From: Bacteroidota bacterium
GTDB taxonomy: Bacteria; Bacteroidota; Bacteroidia; 2-12-FULL-35-15
NCBI GenBank assembly: GCA_947476185.1
Contig: CANJPX010000001.1
Location: forward strand, 62,001-126,000
Reading direction: 5' to 3'
Length of the DNA stretch: 64,000 nt
This document shows, piece by piece, positions 28,916 through 64,000 of the stretch (position 1 is the first letter of the stretch; each line of letters starts with the position of its first letter). The position numbers and the translations under genes are program-made. The notes below the pieces were generated by a model that saw nothing but the letters and a program-made list of their open reading frames with translations, searched no databases and was not told the origin of the DNA.

Positions 28916-28987
28916 TTTGGTTAAAATAAAAATAATAGTGATGGTCAATATTTGACCTAAATAAAATCTGTTTTACATAGTATTAGG

Positions 28988-34202: not shown

Positions 34203-34222
34203 CCAACAATAACTTATTTTAA

Positions 34223-35065: not shown

Positions 35066-35108
35066 TTATTTTATATAGAAGTTTTTTGGCAGCGACTTGC
35101 TACCAACT

Positions 35109-44868: not shown

Positions 44869-46131
44869 TTATTTTATAGGAGGTATGACCTTGGGCTCCA
44901 CTCGGCCATAAATGTTAATCAAGTTTGGTCCATATTGACTGGTAACTATTACCAAATATTTTAAATCAAAACTCGGGTCAACATATTGCTGAAAATATTT
45001 TAAGTTATCGTAATCAATAATAATTTTCGCAGGTAGATATAGTCCGCCATTTCCTTGAAAATGGCCACCAAAATCCATCAAAAATTGTTTCTCTTTATTA
45101 AATATTTGAACATTTTCAAATGCGGCATCAACACAAAAAATATTTCCTTCCTTGTCAACAGCTATTCCCTTTAATTTTGCAAAGTCACCAGGTTGGTCAC
45201 CAGGACGGCCTATTGTATCGAGAAATGTACCATCAGTTGAATAGATTTTAACTTTTGAACATCCAAAATCTGCTGCATATACTTTCCCGTCACTTACTGC
45301 AATATTTGTAGGCATACACAAGGGGTAGGCGTTCGGGTCATCAGCTCTTGGAATAGTGTAAAGAAGTTTGCTGATTGAATCATTATTGTAAACATAAATT
45401 TTGCTATTTGCACTATTGGCTACAAATATTTTATTTTCATATACATTTACATCGCTGGGTTTAAACTTTTCTTTTTCACCAAAACTCTTCACAAAACGTC
45501 CATTTTCATCATAAACAAGCACCATTGATTGTCCCGGATCAGCAACATATAAATAACCTTTGTCATCTACAAAGCAATTGATAGGGGTTCTAAACTGTCC
45601 TTTTCCTAAAGGAGCAAAATAATCAAAACTCTTTTTTTCCAGATCCAGTACTTCGAGTCCTCCGGTATAGTTGTCGCAAACAAATAGTTTTCCTTTTTTT
45701 AGAAAAATTCCATAAGGCTTTACCATTCCTTTTGGCCTCTCTTCACCTGTAACCATTTTTGAAAAAAGGCCTTGAGGTTTCTCGATATCTGTTGAAGATG
45801 AAATTTTAGTTAAAAATTGAAAACGAGCCTGTTCAGGAGGGCTAGGGAAGACAATTAACTCCGATTTAACCTCTTTGTGTTTAAAAAATTTATTGCAGGA
45901 AGTAAGACCGGGGAAAAGCAGTAAGGAAAATATAAATAATACAGAAGTTTGTTGAACTCTTTTTTTTATAAAAGAAAATTTATGCTCTTTTAAAAAAGGA
46001 AGAGCAAGATGGCTAATACTATCGTTCGGCATTTTTTGTATCTGCTGATCCGTAAAACTTTTGGCAGATTTCCATGGTTTGGAAATTAAATTACGTAACT
46101 CAACAATTTTAGAAATCAGACATTTTTTCAT
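44869..46131 (-). CDS. NHL-repeat/6-bladed beta-propeller lipoprotein
   Basis: LTSCNKFF lipobox; GQFRTPINCFVDDKGYLYVADPGQSMVLVYDENGRFVKSFG; LKGIAVDKEGNIFCVDAAFENVQIFN. Confidence 0.82.
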   Translation of the reverse strand: MKKCLISKIVELRNLISKPWKSAKSFTDQQIQKMPNDSISHLALPFLKEHKFSFIKKRVQQTSVLFIFSLLLFPGLTSCNKFFKHKEVKSELIVFPSPPEQARFQFLTKISSSTDIEKPQGLFSKMVTGEERPKGMVKPYGIFLKKGKLFVCDNYTGGLEVLDLEKKSFDYFAPLGKGQFRTPINCFVDDKGYLYVADPGQSMVLVYDENGRFVKSFGEKEKFKPSDVNVYENKIFVANSANSKIYVYNNDSISKLLYTIPRADDPNAYPLCMPTNIAVSDGKVYAADFGCSKVKIYSTDGTFLDTIGRPGDQPGDFAKLKGIAVDKEGNIFCVDAAFENVQIFNKEKQFLMDFGGHFQGNGGLYLPAKIIIDYDNLKYFQQYVDPSFDLKYLVIVTSQYGPNLINIYGRVEPKVIPPIK

Positions 46132-46327: not shown

Positions 46328-47086
46328 TTATTTTGCGTGGCAAGTGATACAAATTGCAGATCCTTGGTTACTTTGTTTCAATTGGTAACCAACTTTGTTA
46401 CTGTGAGGACCATGGCAAGAAGTACATTGTACTAATCCTTGTCCCGGTATTGTTGCGTTATCTAACCAAGTAGAAAGCGCTTTGCCTGTGCTAGTGTATA
46501 CACCAGGTGAAGTGTAAGAAGATGCAAAACCAGATAATGGTCTTGATGTACTAGTTGCATTCATAGAGATAGAGATTGGGTGATCGTTTCTCAAATCTTT
46601 ACTTAATAGCGCTCCTGCGTTTGCAGCAGTTCCAGAAGAATACCAAGTATAACCTGCACCAATGAAAGTAGCTCCGGTTAACCCTCCAAATGATCCAAGA
46701 GCAACAGAGCCATCATGACAAGATAAACACATTAATGATAAACCATTAGGTGCTAATACGCCTTGTAATTCAGAAGCAGCACCAAATTTTGTGTACATGT
46801 TGTAACCAAGTCCAGTAGTTGCAGTGTGGTTCCAAAGTGGAATAAGTAATGCTGCACCTGTTTTTGCATTGTGTGGAGTATGGCAAGGTTGACAGATTTG
46901 ACCCCCTTGTTGTACATAAACACCACCAACAGAAATGGCTGGGTTCCAAGATTGGTCAGCGAAATTGTGAGGAGAACCTGATTGTGTTAAAGAGGTTGTG
47001 ATTGTACCCGGACCAAAGGTACTTTGTCCAACACTCATTAGGGGGGCTAGCAACCCTAATGCTCCTAAAATGATTAGTTTTTTCAT
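46328..47086 (-). CDS. Tetraheme c-type cytochrome (cytochrome c3-like)
   Basis: Signal peptide; CQPCHTPHN, CLSCHDGS, CTSCHGPHSN, CITCHAK. Confidence 0.88.
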   Translation of the reverse strand: MKKLIILGALGLLAPLMSVGQSTFGPGTITTSLTQSGSPHNFADQSWNPAISVGGVYVQQGGQICQPCHTPHNAKTGAALLIPLWNHTATTGLGYNMYTKFGAASELQGVLAPNGLSLMCLSCHDGSVALGSFGGLTGATFIGAGYTWYSSGTAANAGALLSKDLRNDHPISISMNATSTSRPLSGFASSYTSPGVYTSTGKALSTWLDNATIPGQGLVQCTSCHGPHSNKVGYQLKQSNQGSAICITCHAK

Positions 47087-47482: not shown

Positions 47483-48979
47483 TTAAAGGTGAAACAGGTT
47501 GAATTGACTGGAGAATGCAGGTAAATTGACTGTGATTTCGGATATTGATATTAAAATAAAGAGAAGGAAAAGGATACTTAAGCGAATTTTTTCAATTTTG
47601 ATCCAGGATAAAGCAAGATTTAATCCTTGCACAAAGAGGAATGTAAATGGAACGAGTGCAGAACTGATAAGCCGGCCGGAGTAAAAGAATGGTACATCCT
47701 TAGAAGGATAAAAGCAGGCTCCAAAATCGAAACTTAACGATAGTGTAACCATAAAAAGAATCAGAGAAGCAAAACACCAAAAAGAAAACCAGTTTACCTT
47801 TCGTTGTATTTCAAGCTTAAGTTTATTCATATTGAGCAAAGCAAATAGTGGAAATACCAAGGACGAAAAACAATAGAAAACATCAGCTACCCTCATTCCA
47901 ATACTAGTTGCCCACCAAGTAAATTCGCCTCTCCAGAAAGTGATCATCAATCCTTCCCAGAAGGTCCAGGCACCTTGCAGTGTAAAAATGGGGTGGCTGA
48001 ACCATTCGGAAACAGGCTTGTGTGACCAGCCTAGTCTATGAATCTTTTCTGCGGAAGCTGTAATGTCACCATAGTTGTATTGATTCCAGGCGAACCAGGT
48101 AAATACCGGAATAGCGGCAAAAAAAACAAACAAAAGGATGGGTTGCCGTGTTTGTTCCAGCTTTTTCATTCTCCATGATTTTAAGAGTAAATAAAGCAAT
48201 GTAAGAAGCACAACAAAAAACAAGGGCAAGTTACTGATCTTCACAAAAACTGTTGCAGCAGTTGCCAAGCCTGCAGCAATTGCTTTTAGTGGATGAGGAG
48301 ATTCGTTTTTCATAAAACGGACCATACCAATAAACGCGAATCCAAAGCAGATTGGAGACATTACATCGCTTTGAATTGAATAAAAGGTATCCTGTGGTAA
48401 TAGAGCAATCATCAAGGGAACTCCTAAAATAATAAATTGATCATCAGAAAATAACATTGAAGCAGCGCGGTAGGCAATCCAAACAAGTACTATTATAAGT
48501 AAAATATTCAGATCCCTAATCCAATAAAGCAACCAGCCTCCCTTTATCCCAAGCAAAATGCCCAGTTTTGTCCAGATCCCAGCTACAATATAGTATAATG
48601 GAGCTTGTAAAGAATTTTCGTTATAATGACTAGTCCAAAGGGCTATGCCTCCATTAATATAGGTTTGTGTATTCTCCTTGGGTAGTTTCCAAATTGGTGA
48701 AGGAAACTTCTGCCCGGGATAATTGTCAGGGTTTTCATTAAATTCTTTCGATTCGTAACGAACAATGTAATCAGCAGAAACTGGTGAAATTGTTTCTAAT
48801 GATTTTGGTATATGACCTTCACTGTATTTTATTACCAGATCAAAATGAACCTGTTCGTCAGTATTATTGAAGAATGGGAAGGCTGAAGAATAAATAAAAA
48901 CACGAATTGCAGCAATTATGCATATGATTATGGCAAGACGGTGATTTTTTTTGGTTATTAAATCTGGTTGCGCCATCAT
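47483..48979 (-). CDS. Polytopic membrane protein, DUF2142/GT-C-like
   Basis: PFFNNTDEQVHFDLVIKYSEGHIPKS loop, multiple TM segments. Confidence 0.6.
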   Translation of the reverse strand: MMAQPDLITKKNHRLAIIICIIAAIRVFIYSSAFPFFNNTDEQVHFDLVIKYSEGHIPKSLETISPVSADYIVRYESKEFNENPDNYPGQKFPSPIWKLPKENTQTYINGGIALWTSHYNENSLQAPLYYIVAGIWTKLGILLGIKGGWLLYWIRDLNILLIIVLVWIAYRAASMLFSDDQFIILGVPLMIALLPQDTFYSIQSDVMSPICFGFAFIGMVRFMKNESPHPLKAIAAGLATAATVFVKISNLPLFFVVLLTLLYLLLKSWRMKKLEQTRQPILLFVFFAAIPVFTWFAWNQYNYGDITASAEKIHRLGWSHKPVSEWFSHPIFTLQGAWTFWEGLMITFWRGEFTWWATSIGMRVADVFYCFSSLVFPLFALLNMNKLKLEIQRKVNWFSFWCFASLILFMVTLSLSFDFGACFYPSKDVPFFYSGRLISSALVPFTFLFVQGLNLALSWIKIEKIRLSILFLLFILISISEITVNLPAFSSQFNLFHL

Positions 48980-49028: not shown

Positions 49029-50789
49029 TCAATTTGTGGTTTGTTTTACAATAATTTGCCAGGTGTCATTAGCATATTTAGCATTTATTGTATCATTGAT
49101 TAGGAGATAATTCTTTGAAAGATTGTGCCATGCATCCACATTTTTTTCATTAAGTTCTATTGCCTTTTTATAGCAGATGATGGCCGAATCAGTATTTCCT
49201 TGGCGATAGTGCCCGTTGCCTTCATTATACAGCAGGTCGCTTACAAATGTTATTCTTTTTAATGCTTCAGGATTAGCAGGATCAGCCCGATATGCGTATA
49301 AGAAATTATCGCCCGCTTTAAAATAATTGGTCAATCCTTGATAAGCATAACCTAAGTCAATGTATACTAATTGGTCGTGTCGAAACATGCTAAGAACTTT
49401 TTCATCGTAATAAACGGCCTTTTTATAGTAGTCTGTTCTTTGTGTCTGATTTTTTTCTGCCGCAGCCAGAATGAGGTATTCATTGGCAGTATTAAAATTT
49501 ATTCTGACACTATTTGGAGCTTTAGCGATATCAGCAAAGTTTAATGTCCGATCATTTTTCCATTCAGAATTCCGCTGGATTGTCCGAAAAGCAAAAACAG
49601 TAAATATTGATGTTAGTACTATACTTGAAATTAGGAGGTATTTCCGGCTGGCTCTAATGTAAAGGATGGCCATTATAATACAAAAGGCCAAGGATGGTTG
49701 GAACAATAAACGTTCAGCCATGAAGGCTCCGATATCAATTACAAAGTTCGCAAAAAAGAAAATGGTGATCATAAAAAAGAAAATACAAAAGGAAAGCACT
49801 GTTTTGCTTTTAAGGGAATAGAAGGCGAAGCTTATTAAAGTCAATAATATAATGAAGGAAAAAATAAAAGACACCGAAGAAAGTTGATTGAACGGGATTT
49901 CATTATAACCATATTCATAAATTAGGGGGTGTGGAAAAAACAAAAGGCTTACATATTTGAATAGCAATACTACTTTAGTGGCAAAGGATTCGCTTGCTGT
50001 CGCATATAAAAAAGGATAATTCATAACATTTTTATCTGATAAGTTATGAAACCCTAATACAGAGAATCGAATAGCCAGATAAACAATAAAAACACCAATT
50101 AATGGAATTGACAATTGCATGGATCTTTTAATAGTTTGACCAAAAAAATAATAGGCAACCAATGGGATCACTGCAATAAACGGAACAGCGCTTTCTCTGG
50201 TAAGAAGCGCTAGAAAGAAACTTGTCAAGCCTATAATAACAATCCAGGCAGAAGGTTTTTGGAAATATTTTATGTAAGAAAAAGATGTAATAAGCAGCAG
50301 AATAAACGTAATTAATTCATCACGACTTTTAACATTTGCTATTACTTCAGTATGTATCGGGTGTGCAACAAAAAGAAGACATGTAACAAATGCTAAATAA
50401 GGGTGATGTTCTTTAAAAATATATTTTTGTAATAACTGAAATAACAGCGCGATAAGAAGTGCAAACAATAAGACATTAATTAAATGGCTAACAAAAGGTG
50501 TTAATCCAAAAATCTGGTACTCCAATGCAAATACTATCAATGCAAATGGCCGGTAGCGGCCACCTGAAATGTTAACGTCTTTCTTGCAAATGCCATATAA
50601 CAAATCCGATGTAAGTAATTCCGGTATTCCCCTAATTCCTTTTGCAACGATAGTGTTTCCAGTTAGCACCACCGTATCATCCGCGGCATACTCATTAGAA
50701 AGGGTATTCATGTTTAAACACGTCGCCAAAAGTATCAAAAGGTATAATTGGTTTTTTGTTTTGGATAAAAAGGTTTTAACTGTTGCCAT
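49029..50789 (-). CDS. TMTC-like GT-C membrane protein with C-terminal TPRs (array member 1)
   Basis: YAADDTVVLTGNTIV, HPIHTEVIANVKSRDELITFILLL, TPR GNTDSAIICYKKAIELNEKNVDAWHNL. Confidence 0.75.
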   Translation of the reverse strand: MATVKTFLSKTKNQLYLLILLATCLNMNTLSNEYAADDTVVLTGNTIVAKGIRGIPELLTSDLLYGICKKDVNISGGRYRPFALIVFALEYQIFGLTPFVSHLINVLLFALLIALLFQLLQKYIFKEHHPYLAFVTCLLFVAHPIHTEVIANVKSRDELITFILLLITSFSYIKYFQKPSAWIVIIGLTSFFLALLTRESAVPFIAVIPLVAYYFFGQTIKRSMQLSIPLIGVFIVYLAIRFSVLGFHNLSDKNVMNYPFLYATASESFATKVVLLFKYVSLLFFPHPLIYEYGYNEIPFNQLSSVSFIFSFIILLTLISFAFYSLKSKTVLSFCIFFFMITIFFFANFVIDIGAFMAERLLFQPSLAFCIIMAILYIRASRKYLLISSIVLTSIFTVFAFRTIQRNSEWKNDRTLNFADIAKAPNSVRINFNTANEYLILAAAEKNQTQRTDYYKKAVYYDEKVLSMFRHDQLVYIDLGYAYQGLTNYFKAGDNFLYAYRADPANPEALKRITFVSDLLYNEGNGHYRQGNTDSAIICYKKAIELNEKNVDAWHNLSKNYLLINDTINAKYANDTWQIIVKQTTN

Positions 50790-50804
50790 AAAATATTTTT
50801 AGAA

Positions 50805-52577
50805 TTATTTTGAAAGACCCTCATTATTAAATTTGTAATTGGGGGATATCCGTTTAACAATTTGCCATGCTTCTATTGCGCTTTTAGTATCGTTGATTTT
50901 AAAATAAACTTCTCCCAAATTATACCAAGCATCAACATTGCTGTTGTTTAATTCAATAGATTTTTTGTAATGAATAAGCGCATCATTGGTATTGCCCGAC
51001 CTGAAATATTTATTGCCTTCATTAAAAAAAATTTCGCTTAATAGGGCTATCCTTTTTTTAATTTCCGGATTTTCCGGATCAGTGTTTAGTGCTTTTATGC
51101 AAAATTCGGCAGCTTTAAAATAATCCTTCAACTCTAAATAGGTCAATCCTAGGTCTTCATATACTCCAGGATAACCTGGCTCTATTTTAAGAATTTTTTC
51201 ATCGTAATAAAGATTTTTTTTAAAATATTCATTTTTTAATCTTGGATCAGTTTCATCTCGGGCTTTTGAAACATACATAGTGCTGGCTATTAAATTAAGT
51301 TTTAAGCTGTTGGGTGCTGAGTTTATGTCTGAGAAACATAGCGTTTCGTCATTTTTCCATTCGAGATTCCGATGTATTGTTTTTAAAGAAAACAGTAGTA
51401 GCAAAAGTGCCAGAAAAAAAGTTGAGACGGTGAAATAGTGTTTGTAGGTTTTATTATAAACGGAAGCCACAACGATACAAAAGGCTAACGAAGGTTGAAA
51501 TAGAAGACGTTCAGCTAATGGGGCTCCAATATTAATTATAAAATTTGAAAACAGGAAAATAGTAACTATAAAATAAAATATGCAAAATGAAAAAATGGAT
51601 CTTCTTTTGAAAGTATAAACTGCATATATAATCAGTCCTGTGAAAAGCAGAAGGGAAGAGATGAATTTTACCGAACTAAGTTCAATATATGGAATTTGGT
51701 TATAGGAATAATCGAAGGATAATGGGTGTGGAAATAGCAGTAATCCTAAATAGTTTAATAAAATAAACAATTTTGTAGCAAATGCTTCAGATTGCGTTGC
51801 ATAAAAAAAGGGCGAGTTAAGAATGTTATTATCAGGAGCGCTGCTCATTCCAACAATTGAAATCCTTACTAGTATATAAATTGCAAATACGACAAAAAAG
51901 GGAATGGAAATAAGGATTGCTTTTTTTATAGTTTGATTGAAAAAGAAATAGGCGACAATTGGAATCAAACCTAGAAATGGAATTGCAGATTCTCTCGTGA
52001 GCAAGGCAAGAAAAAAGCATAGTAATGAATTAAAAAGATGCAATAGAGATCTCTTTTCTGTGTGCTTTAAAAATGATAAAGAAGAAAGAAGCAATAAAAT
52101 AAAAGTAATAATTTCATCACGGCTTTTTACGTTTGCTATTATCTCTGTGTGAATAGGATGAACGACAAAAATAATGCAGGTAATAAATGCAAGGTTTATA
52201 TTAAATTCTCGGAAGAGGTGCCTCTTTAATACTTTGTATAATAAAGCAATAAGAAGAGCAAATAATAGAATATTGATCATATGGCTAATAAAAGGGTTGT
52301 TGCCAAAAATCTGATGTTCAATAGCGAATGTTATTAATGCAATTGGACGGTAACGACCTGCCGGTAAGTCAACATCCTTAAGGCCAACACCTGAAAAGAA
52401 ATTTGTTGTAAGTAGTTCAGGAATGCCATTGAACCCTTTTTCAACCAGTGTGTTTTTTGTTAACACTACGGGATCATCTACAGCGTAATCATTGTTTAGG
52501 GTGTTAAAATTTAATCCGATCGCAAGAAAAATTAAAATAGCTAACTGAAAATTTGTATTGAAAGAAACTCCTTTCAT
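50805..52577 (-). CDS. TMTC-like GT-C membrane protein with C-terminal TPRs (array member 2); likely start at MKGVSFNTNF
   Basis: YAVDDPVVLTKNTLV, HPIHTEIIANVKSRDEIITF; ORF track extends to 52772, overlapping member 3. Confidence 0.72.
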   Translation of the reverse strand: MKGVSFNTNFQLAILIFLAIGLNFNTLNNDYAVDDPVVLTKNTLVEKGFNGIPELLTTNFFSGVGLKDVDLPAGRYRPIALITFAIEHQIFGNNPFISHMINILLFALLIALLYKVLKRHLFREFNINLAFITCIIFVVHPIHTEIIANVKSRDEIITFILLLLSSLSFLKHTEKRSLLHLFNSLLCFFLALLTRESAIPFLGLIPIVAYFFFNQTIKKAILISIPFFVVFAIYILVRISIVGMSSAPDNNILNSPFFYATQSEAFATKLFILLNYLGLLLFPHPLSFDYSYNQIPYIELSSVKFISSLLLFTGLIIYAVYTFKRRSIFSFCIFYFIVTIFLFSNFIINIGAPLAERLLFQPSLAFCIVVASVYNKTYKHYFTVSTFFLALLLLLFSLKTIHRNLEWKNDETLCFSDINSAPNSLKLNLIASTMYVSKARDETDPRLKNEYFKKNLYYDEKILKIEPGYPGVYEDLGLTYLELKDYFKAAEFCIKALNTDPENPEIKKRIALLSEIFFNEGNKYFRSGNTNDALIHYKKSIELNNSNVDAWYNLGEVYFKINDTKSAIEAWQIVKRISPNYKFNNEGLSK

Positions 52578-52735
52578 TATATAAATAAAAAGTTTTTTAG
52601 GATTTGTTATAACGGCCCTCTTTATATCAGTAAAATCTCTCATTTGTGATCTGTGCTTCTCGTTATTATTAACATTTTCTTCCTGAAAATTCCCAAGTCT
52701 TAAAATTGTTGTCTGTTTGAAATCAGTTTTCCAAA

Positions 52736-54382
52736 CTATAAATTGTTTTCCGATTTTAACTTCATTTGCCATGCCTTCGTAGCATTTGAGGTGTCGTTTA
52801 TTTTTAAATAACTTTTTGTCAAATTGTACCAGGCATCGACATTGTTTTTATTAAAAGTTAAGGATTTTTTATAATTTAAAATTGCGGCTTCAACATTACC
52901 TGTCTTAAATGATTTATTGCCTTCGTTGTAATAAAAATTTGTTAACTGGTTTGTACCTTGTTTTGAAACGGAACCTGTGGGATCTAATTTGCATGAAAAC
53001 GAATAAAATGCTTCTGCATTATTCAAGAATTCATTTTTTAGTTTACCGTTAGTTTCTGTTCCGGCCTTTACAGCGTATGCGTCTGATGCATAAAGATTAG
53101 CCCTTATGCTATTTGGCGCAGAAATAACGTCAGTAAGGAATAGCGACTCACTATTTTTCCACTCAAAATTTCGCGAAATAGTTTTTGTAGAAAACAAAAA
53201 TAAAACAGCAACCATTAAACTAGATGCAAGAACCTTAAACTTCGTAAATCCCTTTAAAAATAGAGTGGCTAAAACAATGCAAAGAGCTAGTGAAGGTTGA
53301 AACAACAGTCGCTCAGCAATTGGTGCTCCTATGTCGATTAAAAAATTGGAGAATAAAAAGATAGTAATAAAAAAGTAAAAAATGCAGAATGAAAAAACAG
53401 ATCTTTTTGTGAACGTAAAAATAGCGTAACCAAAGAGTCCGATTAATAACAGTGAGGATAAAAAAAAGGGAACTGAAAGGACATTAATATAAGGAATCTG
53501 GTTGTAACCATAATCATAGGATAATGGGTAGGGGGATACTAGGAGCGACAAATACTTTGTTAGGATAAAAACTTTCGTAGCAAATGCCTGAGTCGTAGTT
53601 GCCAACAAAAAAGGAGCATTCTGTATATCAGAATTTACGGAGTTGCTGAATCCTACAACAGCTATTCGTATTACCATATATATTGCAAATACAGCAAATA
53701 GGGGAAGCGAAAACAGTATTGATTTTTTAATCGTCTGTTTATAGAAGAAATACAAGATCAGTGGCACAATTACTATAAACGGAACTGCACTTTCACGCGT
53801 AAGAAGTGCTAGAAGAAAGCAAAATAAGCCTACCGCAAGTGAAAAATACTTTTTCTTTTCGAAGTATTTGATAAATGAGAGTCCTGAAACCAGCAGAAAA
53901 AGAAATGTTATAAGTTCGTCACGACTTTTGACATTTGCTACTACTTCCGTATGTATAGGATGAACAATAAAAAAGAGGCAAGTGATAAAGGCTAAATAAT
54001 AATGTTGTTCCCGGAAGATGTGAGTTTTAAGTAATTTAAACAATAAAGTGATCAGAAACATGAATAAAACTAAATTTATTAAATGGCTTACTATTGGATT
54101 TGTACCAAAAAACTGATGTTCCAAAGCAAATATTACTAATACTACTGGTCGATAACGGCCTCCTTGAAAATCACTTTCGATGGTCCCGTGGAAAAAGCCT
54201 GTTGTAAGGATTTGCGGAATTCCACTGATCCCTTTTTGAACGATTGAGTTTCCTGTCAAAACCGTTATATCGTCAAGGGCATAATCATTAAATAGGGTAT
54301 TCGCATACAAACAAAAAGCCAATATTAGCAGGATAAATAGCTGATGCCTACTGCTAAGTTTAAAGTTTTTTGTGATCATCAT
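52736..54382 (-). CDS. TMTC-like GT-C membrane protein with shortened TPR region (array member 3)
   Basis: YALDDITVLTGNSIV, HPIHTEVVANVKSRDELITF. Confidence 0.75.
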   Translation of the reverse strand: MMITKNFKLSSRHQLFILLILAFCLYANTLFNDYALDDITVLTGNSIVQKGISGIPQILTTGFFHGTIESDFQGGRYRPVVLVIFALEHQFFGTNPIVSHLINLVLFMFLITLLFKLLKTHIFREQHYYLAFITCLFFIVHPIHTEVVANVKSRDELITFLFLLVSGLSFIKYFEKKKYFSLAVGLFCFLLALLTRESAVPFIVIVPLILYFFYKQTIKKSILFSLPLFAVFAIYMVIRIAVVGFSNSVNSDIQNAPFLLATTTQAFATKVFILTKYLSLLVSPYPLSYDYGYNQIPYINVLSVPFFLSSLLLIGLFGYAIFTFTKRSVFSFCIFYFFITIFLFSNFLIDIGAPIAERLLFQPSLALCIVLATLFLKGFTKFKVLASSLMVAVLFLFSTKTISRNFEWKNSESLFLTDVISAPNSIRANLYASDAYAVKAGTETNGKLKNEFLNNAEAFYSFSCKLDPTGSVSKQGTNQLTNFYYNEGNKSFKTGNVEAAILNYKKSLTFNKNNVDAWYNLTKSYLKINDTSNATKAWQMKLKSENNL

Positions 54383-54409
54383 CGGTTAATAATAATTCGT
54401 TTTGCTAAA

Positions 54410-56170
54410 TTAATATTTCGGTTCCAGTTTTAATGCATTAAGCTTTGCTATTTCTGCATTTTTGGTATCGTTAATAAAAGAATAACATTTTGATAAGTTA
54501 TACCAGGCATCAATGTTTGATTTATTAAACTCTATTGACATTAAATAATTTCTTATCGCTTCCTTCGGTTCTCCCCCCCCCCTATACAATCTATTACCTT
54601 CGTTGAAATAAATATTACTTAAAGCGCTAATTGCCACTTTTGAACAGGGTGCAGTAGGTTCTAATTGGTAGGCCTTTGTTAAGAAATTCGTCGCTTTGTT
54701 ATAATCTGATAATAGGTAATACACTGTTCCCAGCGTTACATATGGTTCGGGTATAGTAGGACAAATTTTTATTGTTTTTTCGCAATACGAAATTGTTTTT
54801 TTAAAATACTCGTTTTTCAATTCTATACTGTTTTCAGTTTGGGCTTTAGAAAGATAGATACTTGCAACAGTATTGTTGGTTCTTATACTATTCGGTGATG
54901 AAATTACATCCGTCAGAAACAAGGTTTCATTATTTTTCCAATCAGCATTTCGTATGACTGTTTTTAAGCAGAACAATAATAGAATAACGAGCAAAAATGT
55001 ATTTGCAACTAATTTAAATTTCATTGATAGTTGAATGTATAAACTCGCTATAACGATGCAAAATGCAAGAGATGGCTGAAATAAAAGTCTTTCGGAGAGA
55101 GGGGTTCCAATATCAACAGAAATGTTACTACACAACGATATGGTTATAAAAAAATAAAGAATACAAAATGAAAATATTGATTTCCTATTGAATGTGAGGA
55201 TTGCAAAAATCATTAAGTAAGTCAAAAGTGTAAACGACAAGATAAATCGAAAGGAATTAATACCAATATAGGGTATTTGGTTATAGCCATAATCCCAAGA
55301 CAATGGATGAGGGAAGAATAATAATCCCAAATATTTCAACAGAATAAAAAATTTTGTCGCCAATGCTTCTGAGCTGTTGGCAAATAGAAATGGCGAATCG
55401 AACACATTTAATATACCGGCTGAATGACTATTCTTTAGTATATAAAATCGTAATCCTAAATAGAAAATGGTTACAACAAAAAGTGAAGTAGCGGTTAAAA
55501 GGGATTGTTTTATGGATCGATTAAAAAAGAAATACAAAACAAGAGGCGCTATAGCGATATATGTAATTGCACTTTCTCTGGTCAATAGGGCGAGAAAAAA
55601 ACATAGTAGTGAAATTATTAATTTAGCCGTTGCAGGCTTCTGTATATGTTTTAGTAAAAACAGAAGCGACACAACCAGTAAAATGTAGGTAATGAGTTCA
55701 TCACGACTTTTTACACTGGCAATTACTTCAGTATGTATTGGATGAACGACAAATAAGATGCAGGTGAAAAATGCTAAATAGTGATGTTGCTCCCGAAAAA
55801 TAAATGCTTGCAATAACCGAAATAATAAGGTTATAAGCAAAGCAAAGAGTAAAACATTAATTAAATGGCTAACAAACGGATTTTCACCAAAAAACTGGTG
55901 TTCGATAGCAAATACTGCTAGTGAAAAAGGTCGGTAGCGAGCTTCGGATAATGCAGATGTTGAATCACTTGTGCCATAATATAGATCGGTAGTAAGAATT
56001 TCAGGAATGCCCTTAACCCCCTTCTCAACAAGTCTGTTTTCTGTCATTACAACAGAATCATCCAATGTATATTTATTAAACAAAGTATTTATATTCAAAC
56101 TAAAAGCCAATAGAAGCAGAATGATTAGTTGGTGGTTAGTATTGAGTGAAAAAGTTTTTTTCATTGGCAT
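54410..56170 (-). CDS. TMTC-like GT-C membrane protein with C-terminal TPRs (array member 4, poly-G tract)
   Basis: YTLDDSVVMTENRLV, HPIHTEVIASVKSRDELITY; contains G10 run. Confidence 0.75.
   Translation of the reverse strand: MPMKKTFSLNTNHQLIILLLLAFSLNINTLFNKYTLDDSVVMTENRLVEKGVKGIPEILTTDLYYGTSDSTSALSEARYRPFSLAVFAIEHQFFGENPFVSHLINVLLFALLITLLFRLLQAFIFREQHHYLAFFTCILFVVHPIHTEVIASVKSRDELITYILLVVSLLFLLKHIQKPATAKLIISLLCFFLALLTRESAITYIAIAPLVLYFFFNRSIKQSLLTATSLFVVTIFYLGLRFYILKNSHSAGILNVFDSPFLFANSSEALATKFFILLKYLGLLFFPHPLSWDYGYNQIPYIGINSFRFILSFTLLTYLMIFAILTFNRKSIFSFCILYFFITISLCSNISVDIGTPLSERLLFQPSLAFCIVIASLYIQLSMKFKLVANTFLLVILLLFCLKTVIRNADWKNNETLFLTDVISSPNSIRTNNTVASIYLSKAQTENSIELKNEYFKKTISYCEKTIKICPTIPEPYVTLGTVYYLLSDYNKATNFLTKAYQLEPTAPCSKVAISALSNIYFNEGNRLYRGGGEPKEAIRNYLMSIEFNKSNIDAWYNLSKCYSFINDTKNAEIAKLNALKLEPKY
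54573..54582 (-). repeat. Homopolymeric G10 tract (coding strand) inside array member 4
   Basis: C10 on + strand at 54573-54582; encodes R-G-G-G in YRGGGEPKEA. Confidence 0.9.
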
Positions 56171-56184
56171 TTTAATTCTAAGAA

Positions 56185-57966
56185 CTATTGTATGGAAAAC
56201 GCAGTTTTGTTAAACTGATGATTTGGGTCTAACTTTAAAACATATTGCCAAGCCTGTATTCCATTTTTAGTGTCATTTAAATTAAAATAAACTCCACCTA
56301 AAAAGTACCAGGCTTCCACATTGTTGGTGTTTAATTCTATTGCTTTTTTGTAATAGCTTATCGCACTTTTTGTATTCCCATTTTGAAATATTTTGGTGCC
56401 TTCATTCAATAGAAAATTACTGAGTTCGTTTAGTCTGTTTTTTTCATCCTCATGGGAAGGGTCCATTTGGTAAGATTGTAACCACATGTCAGCTGCTTTC
56501 AAGTAATTGTTCAATCCAAAATATGCTGCACCCAGTCCTAAATAAATATATCGATTATTTGCGTCTATTTTTAATGCTCTCTCATCATAAAATACAGCCT
56601 TTCTGAAATACTCATTCTTTAGTTCAGCATTGCTTTCTGATTTTGCTTTTAAAATATAAAATTTTGCGGCATGAATATTTGTTTTTAAACTATTGGGAGC
56701 ATTATTTACATCTGTAAAAAAAAGGGTTTCGTCATTTTTCCAAACCCTATTTCGTATAATTGTCTTTGCTGAAAATGAAATGACAAGGATGACCAAAAAT
56801 GTGGTTGATGTTTTTTTATAATTCTTATTTAGGTAAAGGAAGCCTGTTGCAAATAAAATACAAATTGCAAGAGAAGGTTGAAACAATAGCCGTTCAGCTA
56901 ATGGGGCCCCAATATCCATTACGAAATTAGAAAACAAAAAAATTGTCATTAGAAAATATAGAATGCAAAAGGAAAAAATGGATCTTTTTTTTAGTTTAAA
57001 GAATGCAAAAAGAGTCAACCCGAAAATTACAAGAAAGGGAAAAACAAACTGTATAGATGCTAATCGGATATACGGGATTTGATTGTATGAATAATCGCTT
57101 GATAGAGGATGCGGGAATATTAGTAAGCAAATATATTTCAAAAGAATAAACATTTTTGTTGCAAAAGCTTCTGTAGCTGAAGCATATAAAAACGGAACAT
57201 CAAGTATATCTCCTTTATTACTATAACTAAATCCAACAATTGAAATTCGAAGGATCATATAAATTGCAAATACAATAATTAAGGGGATTGATATTAGAAT
57301 TGATTTTTTGATAGATTGATTGAAAAAGAAATACGCAACCAACGGGAAAATTAATATAAAAGGAACGGCACTTTCTCTCGTTAATAGTGCTAAAAAGAAA
57401 CAAGATAATCCAGCTATCAGATGACCTATTTTGCTTTCCTCATTGTGTTTTATAAGTGCAAATGAGCTCGTGAGTAATAATAAGAATACAATTAATTCAT
57501 CGCGGCTTTTTACGTTGGCAATAACTTCTGTATGTATAGGGTGGACAACAAAAAGGAGGCAGGTGATAAATGCTAAATAGGGCTGATATTCTTTGAAAAT
57601 ATGTTTCTGGAGTAATTTGTATAATAGAATAATTACTAATAAAAATAATAAAATATTAATTGAATGACTTATAAAAGTGTTGTCGCCAAAGAATTGATGT
57701 TCTATTGCAAAAATAATTAATGCAACTGGGCGATATCGCCCACCGGATAGACCGCTTCCCTCACCTGTAAATCCATAAAAAAAATCAGTCGTACATAGCT
57801 GCGGTATTCCCCTTAATCCTTTTTGAACCAATTGATTTCCAGTCAGCACTACTTGATCGTCTAATGCATATTCATTAAAAAGGGTATTAAAGTTTATGCC
57901 GACCGCTAAGAGCAGTAGCAAAAGTAATTGATTTTTCGTTTTAGAAAAAAAGTGATTATTTTGCAT
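56185..57966 (-). CDS. TMTC-like GT-C membrane protein with C-terminal TPRs (array member 5)
   Basis: YALDDQVVLTGNQLV, HPIHTEVIANVKSRDELIVF, TPR region. Confidence 0.75.
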   Translation of the reverse strand: MQNNHFFSKTKNQLLLLLLLAVGINFNTLFNEYALDDQVVLTGNQLVQKGLRGIPQLCTTDFFYGFTGEGSGLSGGRYRPVALIIFAIEHQFFGDNTFISHSINILLFLLVIILLYKLLQKHIFKEYQPYLAFITCLLFVVHPIHTEVIANVKSRDELIVFLLLLTSSFALIKHNEESKIGHLIAGLSCFFLALLTRESAVPFILIFPLVAYFFFNQSIKKSILISIPLIIVFAIYMILRISIVGFSYSNKGDILDVPFLYASATEAFATKMFILLKYICLLIFPHPLSSDYSYNQIPYIRLASIQFVFPFLVIFGLTLFAFFKLKKRSIFSFCILYFLMTIFLFSNFVMDIGAPLAERLLFQPSLAICILFATGFLYLNKNYKKTSTTFLVILVISFSAKTIIRNRVWKNDETLFFTDVNNAPNSLKTNIHAAKFYILKAKSESNAELKNEYFRKAVFYDERALKIDANNRYIYLGLGAAYFGLNNYLKAADMWLQSYQMDPSHEDEKNRLNELSNFLLNEGTKIFQNGNTKSAISYYKKAIELNTNNVEAWYFLGGVYFNLNDTKNGIQAWQYVLKLDPNHQFNKTAFSIQ

Positions 57967-57970
57967 TATA

Positions 57971-59770
57971 TTAATTACTTTTTAAAAAAGTTTCTTTTTT
58001 AAAAGCGTGTTTAGGACTCATTTTTTTAACTAGTTCCCATGCTTTTGAAAATTCTATTGTATCTTTTTTAATTAAATAAGTTCCGCCTAAATTATACAAA
58101 GCTTCAATATTATTACTGTTTAATTCAACGGAACTTTTAAAACATTTAGTTGCTTCCTCCGCATTTCCTGTTTCCAAAAACCCGTTACCTAGTTTATATA
58201 ACACGTCACTTAAAAATTCAAACCAATAAATTTCTTTTGGGTTGTTTGGAATGAATTTTTTATTCTTGTTCCAAAGATCGGCAGTTTTAAAATATTGACC
58301 CAAACTATAATAAGCTATACCAAGCTCCATTATGACATTTGGGTTATCTGGATATATTGATAATGTTCGTTCACCATGGTTAATGGACTTTTGAATGTAT
58401 TCATTACGAATTTTCAGATCTGAAGCTGCGTTAGCTTTCAGAATATACAACTCCATTGCATAATGGTTTGTTCTTTCGCTATTGGTGGAGGATTTAACAT
58501 CAGTAAGAGCCAGCGTTTCGTTGTTTTTCCAAACGGCATTTCGTGTAATAGTTTTGGTGGAAAATAAAATTAGAATGATCACTAGTGCGCCATTGAAAAC
58601 GAGTTTTGATTTAGCTTGGAAGTGGTTAAACAGCGCAGCTACAATAATACAAAATGCTAAAGATGGTTGAAATAAGAATCTTTCTGATAGTGGTGTTCCA
58701 ACATCGACAACAAAATTACTAACTATAGAAATTGTGATAAAGAAATAAAGTATAGAAAAAGAATAGATTGATTTCTTCTTTATAAGTAAGAGTGCTAAAC
58801 TAATAAGAGAAACAATAACGAAGGCTGAAATTACGAATTTGAAGGAGGTAGTGGTGATATACGGTATTTGATTGTAACCGTAATCAAAAGACAATGGATG
58901 CGGGAAAAATAGCAAGCCAAGATATTTCAATAGGATGAAAATTTTCGTAGCAAAACCTTCCATGTTCGTTGCTAATAAAAATGGAGCATTCATGACATTG
59001 GTGCTACTGATTGTAGCAGTAGCTTGTGCGTTGGCGATAATTAAATTCCGTAAATACAAATAAAAAATTAAGAGAATAATAAGAGGAACGGACTGCAGTA
59101 CACCTTGAGGAATTGATTTGTTCGAAAAGAAAAATAAACAAAGTGGCACAACGGCAATAAAAGTGATGGAGCTTTCTCTTGTGAGAAGTGCGAGAAAGAA
59201 AAATATACTGCCCAACACGAGATAGATTTTTTTTGGATTATCAGCATATTTAAAGAACATTAATAATAATGAAATAAGAAAAACAAATGCAATAATTTCG
59301 TCTCTGCTTTTTACATTAGCAATAACTTCTGTATGTATTGGATGAACAGCAAATAGCAGACAAGTAACAAAACTTAGGATATAGGTTTGGTTTCTAAAAA
59401 TGTAATCATGTAATAATTTATGTAATAATATAATAAGCAGTGAAAATAGTAGTACATTGACAAAATGGCTAATCATTGGGTTTTCACCAAAAAATTGATG
59501 TTCAATAGCGAAAATAATCAAAGAAAATGGCCGATATCTAGCTTCTGATAAATCTCCGGATGTTTTATCAAAACCGTAAAAAAGATCTTTTGTTAAAATT
59601 TCAGGAATGCCATAAATACCTTTTTCAACTACAGTATTTTCTGTCATTACAACACCATCGTCTAAAGCATAAGCATTAAAAAGTGTATTAAAGTTTAGAC
59701 CAATGGTAATAAGAACCAAAAGGAGGAGTTGATTGTTTTTGGTAAAAAATATAGTACTAAATCTTCCCAT
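57971..59770 (-). CDS. TMTC-like GT-C membrane protein with C-terminal TPRs (array member 6)
   Basis: YALDDGVVMTENTVV, HPIHTEVIANVKSRDEIIAF. Confidence 0.75.
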   Translation of the reverse strand: MGRFSTIFFTKNNQLLLLVLITIGLNFNTLFNAYALDDGVVMTENTVVEKGIYGIPEILTKDLFYGFDKTSGDLSEARYRPFSLIIFAIEHQFFGENPMISHFVNVLLFSLLIILLHKLLHDYIFRNQTYILSFVTCLLFAVHPIHTEVIANVKSRDEIIAFVFLISLLLMFFKYADNPKKIYLVLGSIFFFLALLTRESSITFIAVVPLCLFFFSNKSIPQGVLQSVPLIILLIFYLYLRNLIIANAQATATISSTNVMNAPFLLATNMEGFATKIFILLKYLGLLFFPHPLSFDYGYNQIPYITTTSFKFVISAFVIVSLISLALLLIKKKSIYSFSILYFFITISIVSNFVVDVGTPLSERFLFQPSLAFCIIVAALFNHFQAKSKLVFNGALVIILILFSTKTITRNAVWKNNETLALTDVKSSTNSERTNHYAMELYILKANAASDLKIRNEYIQKSINHGERTLSIYPDNPNVIMELGIAYYSLGQYFKTADLWNKNKKFIPNNPKEIYWFEFLSDVLYKLGNGFLETGNAEEATKCFKSSVELNSNNIEALYNLGGTYLIKKDTIEFSKAWELVKKMSPKHAFKKETFLKSN

Positions 59771-59792
59771 TTATAATAAACTTAAAATAGCT

Positions 59793-61583
59793 TCAATTAG
59801 TTTTAACGGAGAATTCATTTTTATCAATTATATATGTTGAGTCTAATTTTTTTAAAGTGTTCCAGGTTTTATTTGCATTAACAGTATCTCCCTTGAAATA
59901 ATATCCTCCACCCAGATAATACCATGCAGCTAAATTCGAATTGTTTAGTTCCACTGACAATTTAAAACACTTTAATGCACCGGCACTAAAATTTTGATCA
60001 AATAATTCATTCCCTTTTCTATAAAATAAATTACTCAGGTAATTTAATTTTTTTTCATTTTCCTTATTGGTAGAAGATAAATTGAAATCTTTCAAAAACA
60101 GCGATGTCGATTCATAATTATCTAGTAATGCAATATAAGCTGATTCCAAATTTAAACTTGCAAGTTGGTTGTCAGGACAAATTTTTAATGATTGCTCACC
60201 AAAAGATACGGCTTTTTTAAAATATTGTTTTTTAAGTTGTAAATCTGTTTCTGAAATTCCCTTTGAAATAAACACTTGCAGAGCATTTTGATTTGTGCGA
60301 ATACTATTGGGAGAGGTTGCAACGTCTGTAAGAAAAAGTGTCTCATTGTTTTTCCAGACGCTATTACGAGCAAATGTTTTTACAGAAAACAATAAAACAA
60401 TAGTAAAAAATAAAAACCCAGAAAGGACCATGTTTTTTTCAAATATTCTTATTAAAAGAACCGCTAGGGCAATGCAAAAAGCCAATGAAGGTTGAAAGAG
60501 CATCCGTTCAGCAAGAGGGGTTCCTAGGTCGATAAAAAGATTTGTTCCAATGGAAATGGTAACAAAAAAATATAGAATACTAAATGAAACGATAGATTTA
60601 CGTTTAAAATAAATAAAGGAATAAATAATTAAACTGGTAAGAAGTAATAGAGAAATTATAAATGGGGTACTGATTAGATTTACATAAGGTATTTGGTTAT
60701 AACTATAATCATAGGAAAGAGGAGTTGGTATACATAGTAGCACGATATATTTAAACAAAATGTATATTTTAGTCGCGAACGCCTGGCCCGTAGCAGCAAA
60801 TATGTAGGGAGTATTTCCAATGTCGGCAACCTCATATTGTTTCGCTCCTACTACACAATATCTAAGAAACATGTATGTAAAAAACGTGAATATATATGGA
60901 AGACAAACAAAAAAAGATTCTTTTAATGTTTTTTTTAAAAAGAAATATGCAAGTAAAGGGACTATTGCGATACTTGTTACTGCTGATTCTTTTGTTAGTA
61001 AGGCTAGAAAAAAAGTTAAGAGAGACATTGCAAGTAGGCCACGATATTTTTTCTCCAAGTATTTTGCGAAAAATAGGAAGCATGACAGTAGAAAGATAAA
61101 TGTTAGTAGTTCATCACGACCTTTTACATTCGCAACAATTTCGGTATGTATTGGATGTACAATAAAAATCATGCAGGAAACAAAGGCTAAATATTTGTGC
61201 TGGTCCCGGAAAATGATTGTGGTTAGAAATTTATATAGTAAAATGGCAAGTAATGTATAGAGCAATATATTTATTAAATGACTTATTATTGCGTTTTCCC
61301 CAAAAAGTTGGTGTTCCAATGCAAATATTATTAAAGATAGTGGGCGATATCGCGCACCAGCGAGTGCGCTGTCATTTATCGAAACGCCTGCAAAGTATTG
61401 TGTTGTCAGTAATTCAGGGATTCCATTAATGCCTTTTTCAACAATTTTATTTTCAGTTATAACTACATAATCATCGTAGGCGTATTCGTTAAATAGTGTA
61501 TTAGCATTTAGGCAAAACGCTATAATGGCCAGTATGATTAACTGGTATTTTGTGTTGAATTTTAAAATTTCAGTTATTTTCAT
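59793..61583 (-). CDS. TMTC-like GT-C membrane protein with C-terminal TPRs (array member 7); likely start MKITEILKF
   Basis: YAYDDYVVITENKIV, HPIHTEIVANVKGRDELLTF. Confidence 0.74.
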   Translation of the reverse strand: MKITEILKFNTKYQLIILAIIAFCLNANTLFNEYAYDDYVVITENKIVEKGINGIPELLTTQYFAGVSINDSALAGARYRPLSLIIFALEHQLFGENAIISHLINILLYTLLAILLYKFLTTIIFRDQHKYLAFVSCMIFIVHPIHTEIVANVKGRDELLTFIFLLSCFLFFAKYLEKKYRGLLAMSLLTFFLALLTKESAVTSIAIVPLLAYFFLKKTLKESFFVCLPYIFTFFTYMFLRYCVVGAKQYEVADIGNTPYIFAATGQAFATKIYILFKYIVLLCIPTPLSYDYSYNQIPYVNLISTPFIISLLLLTSLIIYSFIYFKRKSIVSFSILYFFVTISIGTNLFIDLGTPLAERMLFQPSLAFCIALAVLLIRIFEKNMVLSGFLFFTIVLLFSVKTFARNSVWKNNETLFLTDVATSPNSIRTNQNALQVFISKGISETDLQLKKQYFKKAVSFGEQSLKICPDNQLASLNLESAYIALLDNYESTSLFLKDFNLSSTNKENEKKLNYLSNLFYRKGNELFDQNFSAGALKCFKLSVELNNSNLAAWYYLGGGYYFKGDTVNANKTWNTLKKLDSTYIIDKNEFSVKTN

Positions 61584-61593
61584 AAAAAGCAGT

Positions 61594-63507
61594 TTAAAAT
61601 TCACTCATATTTAATTTATGACTCGGATCTAAAAGTTTTACTTCTTGCCAGGCTGCAATTGCATTTTGTGTTTCGTTTAGTAAAAAATAACTTCCACCCA
61701 ACTTATACCAAGCTTCCACATTTTTATTATTTAACTCTATTGATTTTTTGTAACATTTAATAGATTGGAGGGTATTTCCTTTGAGGCTAAGCAGAAACCC
61801 TTGCTTATATAGGACCATGCTTAAAATATTAAGCCATTTTTCTGCTATAGGGTCGTTAGGCATTAATTTGTAACCTTGAACAAGTAAGTCAGCCGCTTTA
61901 AAATAGTCCGAAAGTCCATAATATGCTGAACCCAAGTCCATGTATGCGACTGAATTATTAGGGTTTATTTTAAGATTTCGCTCACCATAATATATGGCTT
62001 TTTTGAAGTATTCATTTTTTAATTGATCATTTTTTTCAGCATCAGCTATAGTTAAGTACAGTGTTACCATACTCTGGCAGGCACCTGAATTATTCGGATA
62101 TATTTTAAGACTACGCTCACCGTAATAAATTGCTTTTTTGAAGTATTCCTTTTTTAATTGAGCATTAGTATCTGCGATGGCTTTTGATAAATAAAGTATT
62201 GTTACATACTGATTTGTTCTAACGCTGTTTGGAGCAGTTATTATATCCGCTAAATAAATGGTTTCATTATTCTTCCATTCAGCATTCCTTGAATATGTTT
62301 TTATTGAAAACAATATTAATATAATAAATAAAATAGTGTTTGCCAGCACTCTTCTTTTTTTTTGTGCTTTTAAAAAAAATAATGCCAAAACTATACAGAA
62401 CGCAAAGGATGGCTGAAATAAAAGTCGCTCGGATAAAGGAGTGCCAATATCGACTACAAAATTTGAGACAAGTGAAATTGTGATCATAAAATATAAGATG
62501 CAGAAAGAGATAAGATTTTTTCTTTTAAGCGTCCAAATTGCGTAAACCAATAAACTTATCAAAACGATAAATGAAATAAAAGATGTTAATGAGAATAATT
62601 TTATATATGGTATTTGGTTATATCCATAATCCAAAGATAATGGATGTGGGAATATTAATAATCCTAAATATTTTAAAAGAATAAATATTTTAGTAGCAAA
62701 AGCTTCTGTTGCTGTGGCATATAAAAAGGGGAAATTTAAAATATCCTCAGTTGCCATTGAATTTTTAATGCCTATTATCGAAATACGTAATGACATATAT
62801 GCGAGAAAGACAGCAACTAACGGTATAGAAAACTGAAGTGATTTATTGAATTTTTGATTGTAGAAGAAGTATAAAATCAAGGGCGCTATTCCAATAAAAG
62901 TAACAGCGCTTTCTCTAGTCAGAAGGGCAAGAAAAAAAGAAGTGGAGGCAATTCCAAGCCTAATAAGTGATTTGGTTTCTGTGTATTTGATAAAAGAAAT
63001 TAAGGAGAGGGTAATTAGTAAAAAGGTAATGAGTTCATCTCGACTTTTTACGTTCGCAATTACTTCTGTATGTATTGGGTGCGCTACAAATAACAAGCAA
63101 GAAAAAAATGCTAAATATTGGTTCTGTTTTTGAAAGAGTTGTGTTTGTAATAATTTATAAAGGGCAGCGATTAAAAATATAAAAAATAAAATATTAGTCA
63201 AGTGGCTAATAATTGGATTTGCTCCAAAAAACTGATGTTCTAAAGCAAAAACAACTAAGGAAAAAGGTCGGTATCGAGCCTCCGATAAATTGTTTACATT
63301 TTGCTTGAAGCCATAAAATAGTTCAGTTGATAGTATTTCAGGAATTCCTTTAACCCCTTTTGCAACTAAAGAATTTTCCGCCATCATGGGATTATCATCA
63401 ACAGCATATTCATTAGAGAGTGTATTTACATTTAAGCAAAATGCTAAAATGATCAATATTATTAACTGATATTTTGTGTTTAAATAAAAATTTTGAAATA
63501 TCTTCAT
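61594..63507 (-). CDS. TMTC-like GT-C membrane protein with expanded C-terminal TPRs (array member 8)
   Basis: YAVDDNPMMAENSLV, HPIHTEVIANVKSRDELITF; duplicated EYFKKAIYYGERxLKI module. Confidence 0.75.
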   Translation of the reverse strand: MKIFQNFYLNTKYQLIILIILAFCLNVNTLSNEYAVDDNPMMAENSLVAKGVKGIPEILSTELFYGFKQNVNNLSEARYRPFSLVVFALEHQFFGANPIISHLTNILFFIFLIAALYKLLQTQLFQKQNQYLAFFSCLLFVAHPIHTEVIANVKSRDELITFLLITLSLISFIKYTETKSLIRLGIASTSFFLALLTRESAVTFIGIAPLILYFFYNQKFNKSLQFSIPLVAVFLAYMSLRISIIGIKNSMATEDILNFPFLYATATEAFATKIFILLKYLGLLIFPHPLSLDYGYNQIPYIKLFSLTSFISFIVLISLLVYAIWTLKRKNLISFCILYFMITISLVSNFVVDIGTPLSERLLFQPSFAFCIVLALFFLKAQKKRRVLANTILFIILILFSIKTYSRNAEWKNNETIYLADIITAPNSVRTNQYVTILYLSKAIADTNAQLKKEYFKKAIYYGERSLKIYPNNSGACQSMVTLYLTIADAEKNDQLKNEYFKKAIYYGERNLKINPNNSVAYMDLGSAYYGLSDYFKAADLLVQGYKLMPNDPIAEKWLNILSMVLYKQGFLLSLKGNTLQSIKCYKKSIELNNKNVEAWYKLGGSYFLLNETQNAIAAWQEVKLLDPSHKLNMSEF

Positions 63508-63513
63508 AAAAAT

Positions 63514-64000
63514 TTATTTAGAAAATTCTGTCATATCAAATTTATGATTCGGTTCTAAAATTCTTACCTTTTGCCAAGCCTTCATTCCATTTGTTGTATC
63601 ATTTATCAGAAGATAGCATCCACCTATATTGTACCATGCTTCGGAATTATTTGCATTCAAATTCACTGCTTCCGTATAAAGGTTAATGGCTGTAGATATT
63701 TTCTGCTGATCAAGAAATTTGTTTCCTTCCTTATAAAAAAAATCACTTAAAAGAGTTGCCCAATTTTTTACATCCTGATCATTTGGTTCAATTGTTTGTG
63801 CGGTTTCAGTGAGTTTAGCTGACTTCTGAAATTCTCCTTTATGGTAGTATGCAATGCTTAGTCTCAAGTAGGAATAGGCGAATTCCGAATGTATTTGTAA
63901 TGACATCTTTCCATATTGAATGGCCTGGTCGAGAAGCATGTTTCTTTTTTCTGCATCACTCTCATTGTTGGCTTTTATTATCAATTGTTCACAGGCATAT
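63514..64000 (-). CDS. TPR C-terminus of a further array member (member 9), truncated by right window edge
   Basis: Frame stays open to 64000; SEFAYSYLRLSIAYYHKGEFQKSAKL, AVNLNANNSEAWYNIGGCYLLINDTTNGMKAWQKVRILEPNHKF matches C-termini of members 1-8. Confidence 0.75.
   Translation of the reverse strand, partial: YACEQLIIKANNESDAEKRNMLLDQAIQYGKMSLQIHSEFAYSYLRLSIAYYHKGEFQKSAKLTETAQTIEPNDQDVKNWATLLSDFFYKEGNKFLDQQKISTAINLYTEAVNLNANNSEAWYNIGGCYLLINDTTNGMKAWQKVRILEPNHKFDMTEFSK

Follow-up and report, generated by a model that had tools for sequence, protein, structure and literature searches.

A tandem array of nine TMTC-like GT-C and TPR genes embedded in a multihaem-cytochrome locus of a lake Bacteroidota bacterium

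The animal proteins TMTC1-4 (CAZy GT105; Pfam PF08409) are protein O-mannosyltransferases of the endoplasmic reticulum that combine a glycosyltransferase C-type (GT-C) membrane domain with C-terminal tetratricopeptide repeats (TPRs). Seven motifs (M1-M7) have been proposed for TMTC catalysis and donor binding, and full-length prokaryotic homologues have been noted previously (PMC7801869, motifs in its Table 4). These bacterial relatives are widespread in Bacteroidota, and no function is assigned to them in the papers that we found. General O-glycosylation in this phylum, at the D-S/T-X motif, has been likened to eukaryotic O-mannosylation and its transferase is still unidentified (PMC12871550), and unclassified porin-cytochrome conduits have been reported from humic-lake Bacteroidetes (PMC6344600). 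Here we describe a tandem array of TMTC-like genes found in a 64,000-nt window (the whole stretch of DNA analysed; positions 62001-126000, forward strand, of contig CANJPX010000001.1, or C1) from a lake bacterium, Bacteroidota bacterium. The host genome (G000) is a 4.25 Mb draft in 220 contigs, of which C1 spans 235,565 bp.

Positions 49029-64000 of the window hold eight complete genes of one family (49029-63507), all on the minus strand, plus the 3' end of a ninth:

49029-50789, minus strand: array copy 1, 586 aa, GT-C and TPR; E in place of D in the DUF1736-loop motif; an AlphaFold model was made of this copy.
50805-52772, minus strand: array copy 2, 655 aa if taken as its longest open reading frame (ORF); probable start near 52577; TMTC_DUF1736 27.4 bits, cut-off 27.
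52736-54382, minus strand: array copy 3, 548 aa; shortest TPR part.
54410-56170, minus strand: array copy 4, 586 aa.
56185-57966, minus strand: array copy 5, 593 aa; GT-C part modelled, pLDDT 95.6.
57971-59770, minus strand: array copy 6, 599 aa; ortholog in the relative G031.
59793-61604, minus strand: array copy 7, 603 aa; GTG start; no partner seen in G031.
61594-63507, minus strand: array copy 8, 637 aa; extra TPR unit.
63514-64000, minus strand: array copy 9, C-terminal TPR part only within the window; 592 aa when complete in the contig.

The ninth copy is a 161-aa open end inside the window and a complete gene in the contig (L021:1515-3293), where it is directly followed by a Crp/FNR regulator; therefore, the array consists of exactly nine genes over about 16.3 kb and ends at copy 9. 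The genes form an operon-like row, with intergenic gaps of 4-27 bp and two apparent overlaps of 37 and 11 bp, both of which may reflect over-extended starts: copy 2 carries an extra 65-aa N-terminus, and copy 7 has an ATG only a few codons behind its GTG start. The array is not interrupted by any unrelated gene. These results bear out the initial annotation, which had described nine consecutive, tightly spaced or overlapping minus-strand genes, free of unrelated genes and running past the window edge. A promoter and terminator scan gave counts not above those of shuffled sequences, which says nothing on internal promoters. Outside the array, the genome encodes four more distant homologues, on contigs C3, C16, C67 and C42.

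The assignment of the array proteins to a TMTC-like GT-C plus TPR family is supported by fold, motifs and repeats. As a full-length structure search returned mostly TPR matches and was uninformative for the GT-C part, the GT-C domain was then searched alone, using an AlphaFold model of copy 5 (built from 99 sequences; pLDDT 95.6, pTM 0.94). The top 29 Foldseek matches in the PDB were all GT-C enzymes, alone or as part of a complex, or a subunit with the GT-C fold; the absence of a GT-C fold, named in the initial annotation as the outcome that would speak against its proposal, was not what this search returned. Confident matches included the oligosaccharyltransferases AglB, STT3 and PglB, as well as AftA/AftB, Emb, ALG3/ALG9, ArnT, DPY19, Pmt4, PimE and a glycosylphosphatidylinositol-transamidase chain, with essentially no other fold at high probability. 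A family-profile sequence search of the PDB gave no meaningful match.

All nine copies carry the DD, YRP, HPxHTE (HPIHTE), RDE, (K/R)E and ER motifs. DD, YRP, HPIHTE, RDE and ER are identical throughout, and the longer strings quoted in the initial annotation are present and variable between copies. Among 99 homologues the first D of DD is invariant, the second at least 90% conserved, and most residues of the six motifs are conserved to at least 90%. Compared with the proposed TMTC motifs (PMC7801869), the copies keep M1, the YRP of M2, the (K/R)E of M4 and the ER of M7, and deviate at M3 (RxD), which reads RDE, and at M5 (DW), which reads DY, or EY in copy 1. TPRs are recognised by Pfam in all nine copies, in copy 7 at a score slightly below the cut-off, and the TPR helices are seen in the model of copy 1; these repeats are weakly and generically similar to the CcmH/CycH TPR model. 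The Pfam TMTC_DUF1736 loop model matches weakly, with copy 2 above the cut-off by hmmscan (27.4 against 27 bits), three array copies above it in the genome search (3-4 copies in all) and the remaining copies below. The resemblance to TMTC proteins that had been pointed out earlier holds for the GT-C fold, the DD motif and the C-terminal TPRs, and only weakly for the Pfam loop. Given the predicted GT-C fold and the kept motifs, all nine copies are probably active polyprenyl-phosphate-sugar-dependent glycosyltransferases; mannose as the sugar and protein as the acceptor may be supposed by analogy.

Pairwise comparison, as had been suggested for these copies, gave identities of 47-61% (mean 54%) for the GT-C part and of 27-50% (mean 37%) for the TPR part, with profile scores of 656-688 bits per copy (the copies themselves being included in the profile). 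At the nucleotide level, the listed pairs are about 55-63% identical; aligned copies share at most 23 nt of uninterrupted identity, and the highest value seen in a 150-nt window is 77%. An assembly artefact by short-read collapse or false duplication, a concern raised in the initial annotation, is unlikely because the copies are at most about 63% identical among those pairs and share no exact match longer than 23 nt. In G031, a separately assembled relative, five copies adjoin the corresponding regulator and two, on a second contig, adjoin the corresponding DUF2142 gene, and the order of the copies agrees.

The ratio of nonsynonymous to synonymous substitution rates (dN/dS) is 0.08-0.16 for whole genes and 0.09-0.38 for the TPR parts where estimable, many dS values being saturated. 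The low values show that the copies are maintained under purifying selection; positive selection on array copies was not seen in these dN/dS estimates. The array clade is monophyletic with respect to the solo copies of the family (support 96/99). Between G000 and G031, dS is 0.5-0.8 in most flanking and solo genes and in array copy 9, and at least 1.5 in the interior copies, several of which have no clear partner; hence the interior lineages probably arose before the two species diverged and were then sorted through gene birth and death or through exchange. The 11-haem cytochrome and DUF2142 genes of the locus also show dS near 1.5. TPR halves diverge more than GT-C halves between paralogues (mean identity 37% against 54%), and about equally between clear orthologues (copies 1, 5 and 6), a pattern that fits acceptor specialisation. 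Of the expanded glycosyltransferase family with divergent acceptors proposed earlier, the family and its probable activity stand, and acceptor divergence is plausible because the TPR halves are those that differ more between paralogues.

Most informative is the genomic context, which the earlier interpretation left out: the array sits within a multihaem-cytochrome and porin-like locus. On its high side lie the Crp/FNR regulator, an 11-haem cytochrome, an NHL protein and hemN/L/E/C/A, named from the look of their sequences. On the low side follow a DUF2142 membrane protein, cytochromes with 4, 9 and 10 haems, an NHL protein and a barrel-like protein and, further out, a CcsB/A-type maturation gene and a 19-haem cytochrome:

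47483-48979, minus strand: multi-membrane DUF2142 protein, putatively of GT-C type; next gene downstream of the array; same place in G031.
46328-47086, minus strand: 4-haem c-type cytochrome (CxxCH x4); relatives in G013, G027, G011, G031, G022 and G034.
44869-46131, minus strand: NHL/6-bladed propeller protein.
41654-44473, minus strand: lipoprotein-like cytochrome with nine haems and a long, Thr-rich tail; candidate acceptor of glycosylation.
42130-42982, minus strand: tandem repeat, 84 bp x 10.2 (78% matches), encoding the Thr/Asn-rich tail of the 9-haem lipoprotein.
39225-41486, minus strand: 753-aa protein, outer-membrane beta-barrel-like; in the same 8/36 genus genomes as the array.
38143-39222, minus strand: 10-haem c-type cytochrome (MtrC/MtrF- and DmsE-like domains).
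24402-26399, plus strand: fusion of an epimerase with a PgfS/ArnC-like GT2; may synthesise the polyprenyl-phosphate-sugar donor; sub-threshold match.
17752-20931, plus strand: CcsB/CcsA-type cytochrome c maturation protein; 155 bits, under the equivalog cut-off of 187.6.
12957-15749, minus strand: NHL and PKD protein with a type IX secretion C-terminal signal.
7629-12935, minus strand: 19-haem cytochrome with PKD-like domains.

The order of these genes resembles that of a porin-cytochrome electron conduit. It fits the set expected of such a conduit, a barrel with adjacent periplasmic and outer-surface multihaem cytochromes, the barrel here being putative and assigned by the appearance of its sequence, which has no Pfam or NCBIfam match. 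In relatives, the tails of the 9-haem lipoprotein are S/T/K-rich and of other sequence and length. The 11-haem cytochrome of G031 (L135 1646-3061, G031:C44) lacks the stretch matching residues 382-465 and has two CxxCH fewer. Between the CcsB/A gene and the cytochromes (22700-36770) there is a glycan-type cluster, which contains two transketolase halves, the epimerase-GT2 fusion, two methyltransferases, a PMT_2 protein and four multi-membrane proteins without Pfam match. Two overlapping minus-strand frames at 6853-7628 look like a single FISUMP-type protein split by a frameshift.

The order NHL, 11-haem cytochrome, Crp/FNR and a variable number of TMTC-like genes (up to nine) recurs in G031, G004, G013, G027 and G034. 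G013 has one TMTC-like copy after the regulator and four more at the other flank, and G027 has both array flanks on one contig. Near the low edge of the array, further genes of GT-C type (DUF2142 or PMT-like) are found repeatedly. Of the 36 genomes of the genus, eight have the array clade together with the cytochromes and the barrel (G022, a 78% complete genome, being counted by its barrel and 4-haem relative), and the other 28 have none of the three; their best matches, where checked, are solo copies of the type found on C3. In a lysyl-tRNA synthetase tree these eight genomes do not form one clade (approximately unbiased test, p 1.5e-10), and about four gains or losses are needed; array and cytochromes agree in all four independent contrasts, too few for significance alone. 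The array and the cytochrome/barrel locus are thus gained or lost as a unit. A 6,989-bp contig of G152, from another family (L218, G152:C9), carries NHL, 11-haem cytochrome, Crp/FNR and two TMTC-like genes in this order, through either horizontal transfer or mis-binning.

With moderate confidence, we read the array as a set of periplasmic polyprenyl-phosphate-sugar glycosyltransferases that probably modify exported proteins, perhaps those of the conduit itself, with different paralogues serving different acceptors. A GT2, either that encoded at C15:4563 or the PgfS/ArnC-like fusion at 24402-26399, would load a sugar onto polyprenyl phosphate and the sugar-lipid would flip across the membrane; the N-terminal GT-C domain would then transfer the sugar at the periplasmic face to an acceptor held by the C-terminal periplasmic TPR domain, through which each paralogue may choose its own acceptor. 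The acceptors would be exported proteins, with the cytochromes (above all the Thr-rich 9-haem lipoprotein), the propellers or other surface proteins made under the same conditions as the likeliest candidates. Every step beyond the fold and the motifs is one that we infer. The 9-haem lipoprotein, with its 10-unit Thr-rich repeat, is the best candidate acceptor in the locus. The closest outgroup homologue has in its vicinity a GT2 that shares 66% identity with the C15:4563 GT2. In a stronger version, which appears unlikely, protein glycosylation by the TMTC-like set would be integral to an extracellular electron-transfer conduit, with every paralogue dedicated to one exported cytochrome or propeller and the number of copies following the range of surface proteins that a species makes.

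Several observations weigh against reading the array as a protein-modifying system tied to the conduit. Physically linked genes co-occur in any case; therefore, the association shows a travelling unit rather than a biochemical link, and it is no proof that the enzymes act on the cytochromes. The link between array and cytochromes is not obligatory, since G314 has two array-clade genes and G058 a sister gene (near a GT2) without a cytochrome, and five additional copies in G004 lie in a cytochrome-free region of a contig. The tail sequence of the 9-haem lipoprotein is not conserved among relatives. The D-S/T-X motif is modestly more frequent than expected in the locus overall (37 observed against 26), and strongly over-represented in the 9-haem protein of two relatives only, G027 and G011, not in that of G000 nor in the locus as a whole. 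Finally, the TMTC relationship is weak by Pfam, and sugar, donor and acceptor are all putative.

The rival that survives best, possible if doubtful, is that the array builds or decorates a surface polysaccharide, lipopolysaccharide or glycolipid, its nine enzymes adding different sugars or branches and its TPRs assembling the complex. Many GT-C enzymes act on lipids or glycans, ALG3/ALG9, AftB and ArnT are among the structural matches, and the cluster at 22700-36770 offers GT2, methyltransferases and further multi-membrane proteins. However, where GT-C proteins fused to TPRs have been studied in other systems (TMTC1-4), the link is to protein O-mannosylation; beside the array no polymerase or ligase could be recognised, and G027 (L216) keeps array and cytochromes although the glycan cluster is missing at the matching place.

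Rather improbable is a neutral or dosage expansion, in which redundant tandem copies all do the same job and are linked to the cytochromes only by hitchhiking on an island that is mobile or often lost. Copy number at the locus does vary, and cytochrome-free tandem arrays of the family have arisen several times in Bacteroidota (four to five genes in L114, L219 and L220, ten in L098, three in L090 and in L129). Nevertheless, the copies are deeply diverged and yet under purifying selection with intact motifs, and positional orthology across species, seen here as well as in the four-gene arrays, suggests distinct roles.

A role of the TPRs as scaffolds in cytochrome assembly or maturation, with a vestigial GT-C part, would agree with the setting among cytochrome, CcsBA and haem-synthesis genes and with the generic similarity to CcmH/CycH, but is very improbable considering that the catalytic motifs are invariant in the nine copies and conserved in distant homologues, and that the GT-C part is the better conserved half. 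Weakest of all is the recombination reservoir generating variant enzymes by gene conversion, offered as an alternative in the initial annotation: despite the single orientation of the tandem paralogues and an interior dS between species above that of most flanking genes, with turnover of gene content, it is rejected as barely credible, since no conversion tracts, long identical stretches or partial cassettes were found between the copies, which are all full length, under purifying selection and in an order kept between species.

The array is a real, well-defined set from a known bacterial family, and its surroundings allow its function to be tested. Being kept or lost with a defined set of haem proteins, it points to specific acceptor candidates and allows close relatives with and without it to be compared, and it provides a lead on the glycosylation of electron-conducting surface proteins in lake bacteria and on acceptor choice by paralogous TPRs. 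Our literature search found no description of a glycosyltransferase array accompanying porin-cytochrome loci, and nothing in open-access papers on glycosylated multihaem cytochromes or bacterial DUF1736 arrays.

As in the porin-cytochrome complexes MtrABC and OmbB-OmaB-OmcB, the locus has a putative barrel between the 10-haem cytochrome and the 9-haem lipoprotein-like cytochrome; unlike them, its barrel matches no Pfam or NCBIfam model and it adds NHL proteins and the glycosyltransferase array. The streptococcal Pgf system of protein glycosylation comprises PgfS, PgfM and PgfE and has Thr-rich adhesins as acceptors. The window likewise has an epimerase, a PgfS-like GT2 and membrane GT-C proteins near a Thr-rich secreted protein, whereas its PgfS match is below the cut-off (232/500 bits) and its GT-C proteins belong to other families. 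With the general O-glycosylation of Bacteroidota the proposed system would share periplasmic O-glycosylation of exported proteins. TMTC-like genes were detected in 143 of 296 sampled Bacteroidia species, in a scan that scored only the best few candidates per genome; the family is unlikely to be the phylum-wide O-glycosylation enzyme, a candidate that we disfavour because about half of the sampled species have no detectable TMTC-like gene.

Within the family, the solo proteins (C3 type in the genus, and Bacteroidota generally) are about 37-40% identical to array members. The family is also present in a cultured strain, Flavilitoribacter nigricans DSM 23189 (L117). In contrast to the array, the C3-type gene is single, slowly evolving, placed beside PorP/SprF-type surface genes and the best match in genus genomes without the cytochrome locus. 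In G000 it lies (L023 1236-11609, G000:C3) beside PorP/SprF-like and gliding-type surface-protein genes, as it does in G031 and G035, a neighbourhood that hints at another exported acceptor. The solo gene of G022 (L149 9361-11437, G022:C699) is split into two frames with several stops. The other tandem arrays of Bacteroidota also place three to ten family members side by side, and those of the four-gene type keep position-specific orthology; they differ in belonging to other subclades and in having no multihaem cytochromes seen nearby. L114, L219 and L220, from another Bacteroidota family, have conserved order and flanking genes, and the ten adjacent genes of L098 (JAPLDH010000034.1, 1-19733), from another lake Bacteroidetes metagenome-assembled genome, are of mixed subfamilies with one inverted. 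The closest described proteins are TMTC1-4, with which the array shares the GT-C membrane domain followed by C-terminal TPRs, the DD, YRP, (K/R)E and ER motifs and, by a weak match, a DUF1736-type loop; it differs from them in being bacterial, in a DUF1736 match at or below the cut-off, in the changes from RxD to RDE and from DW to DY, and in its nine tandem paralogues in one genome.

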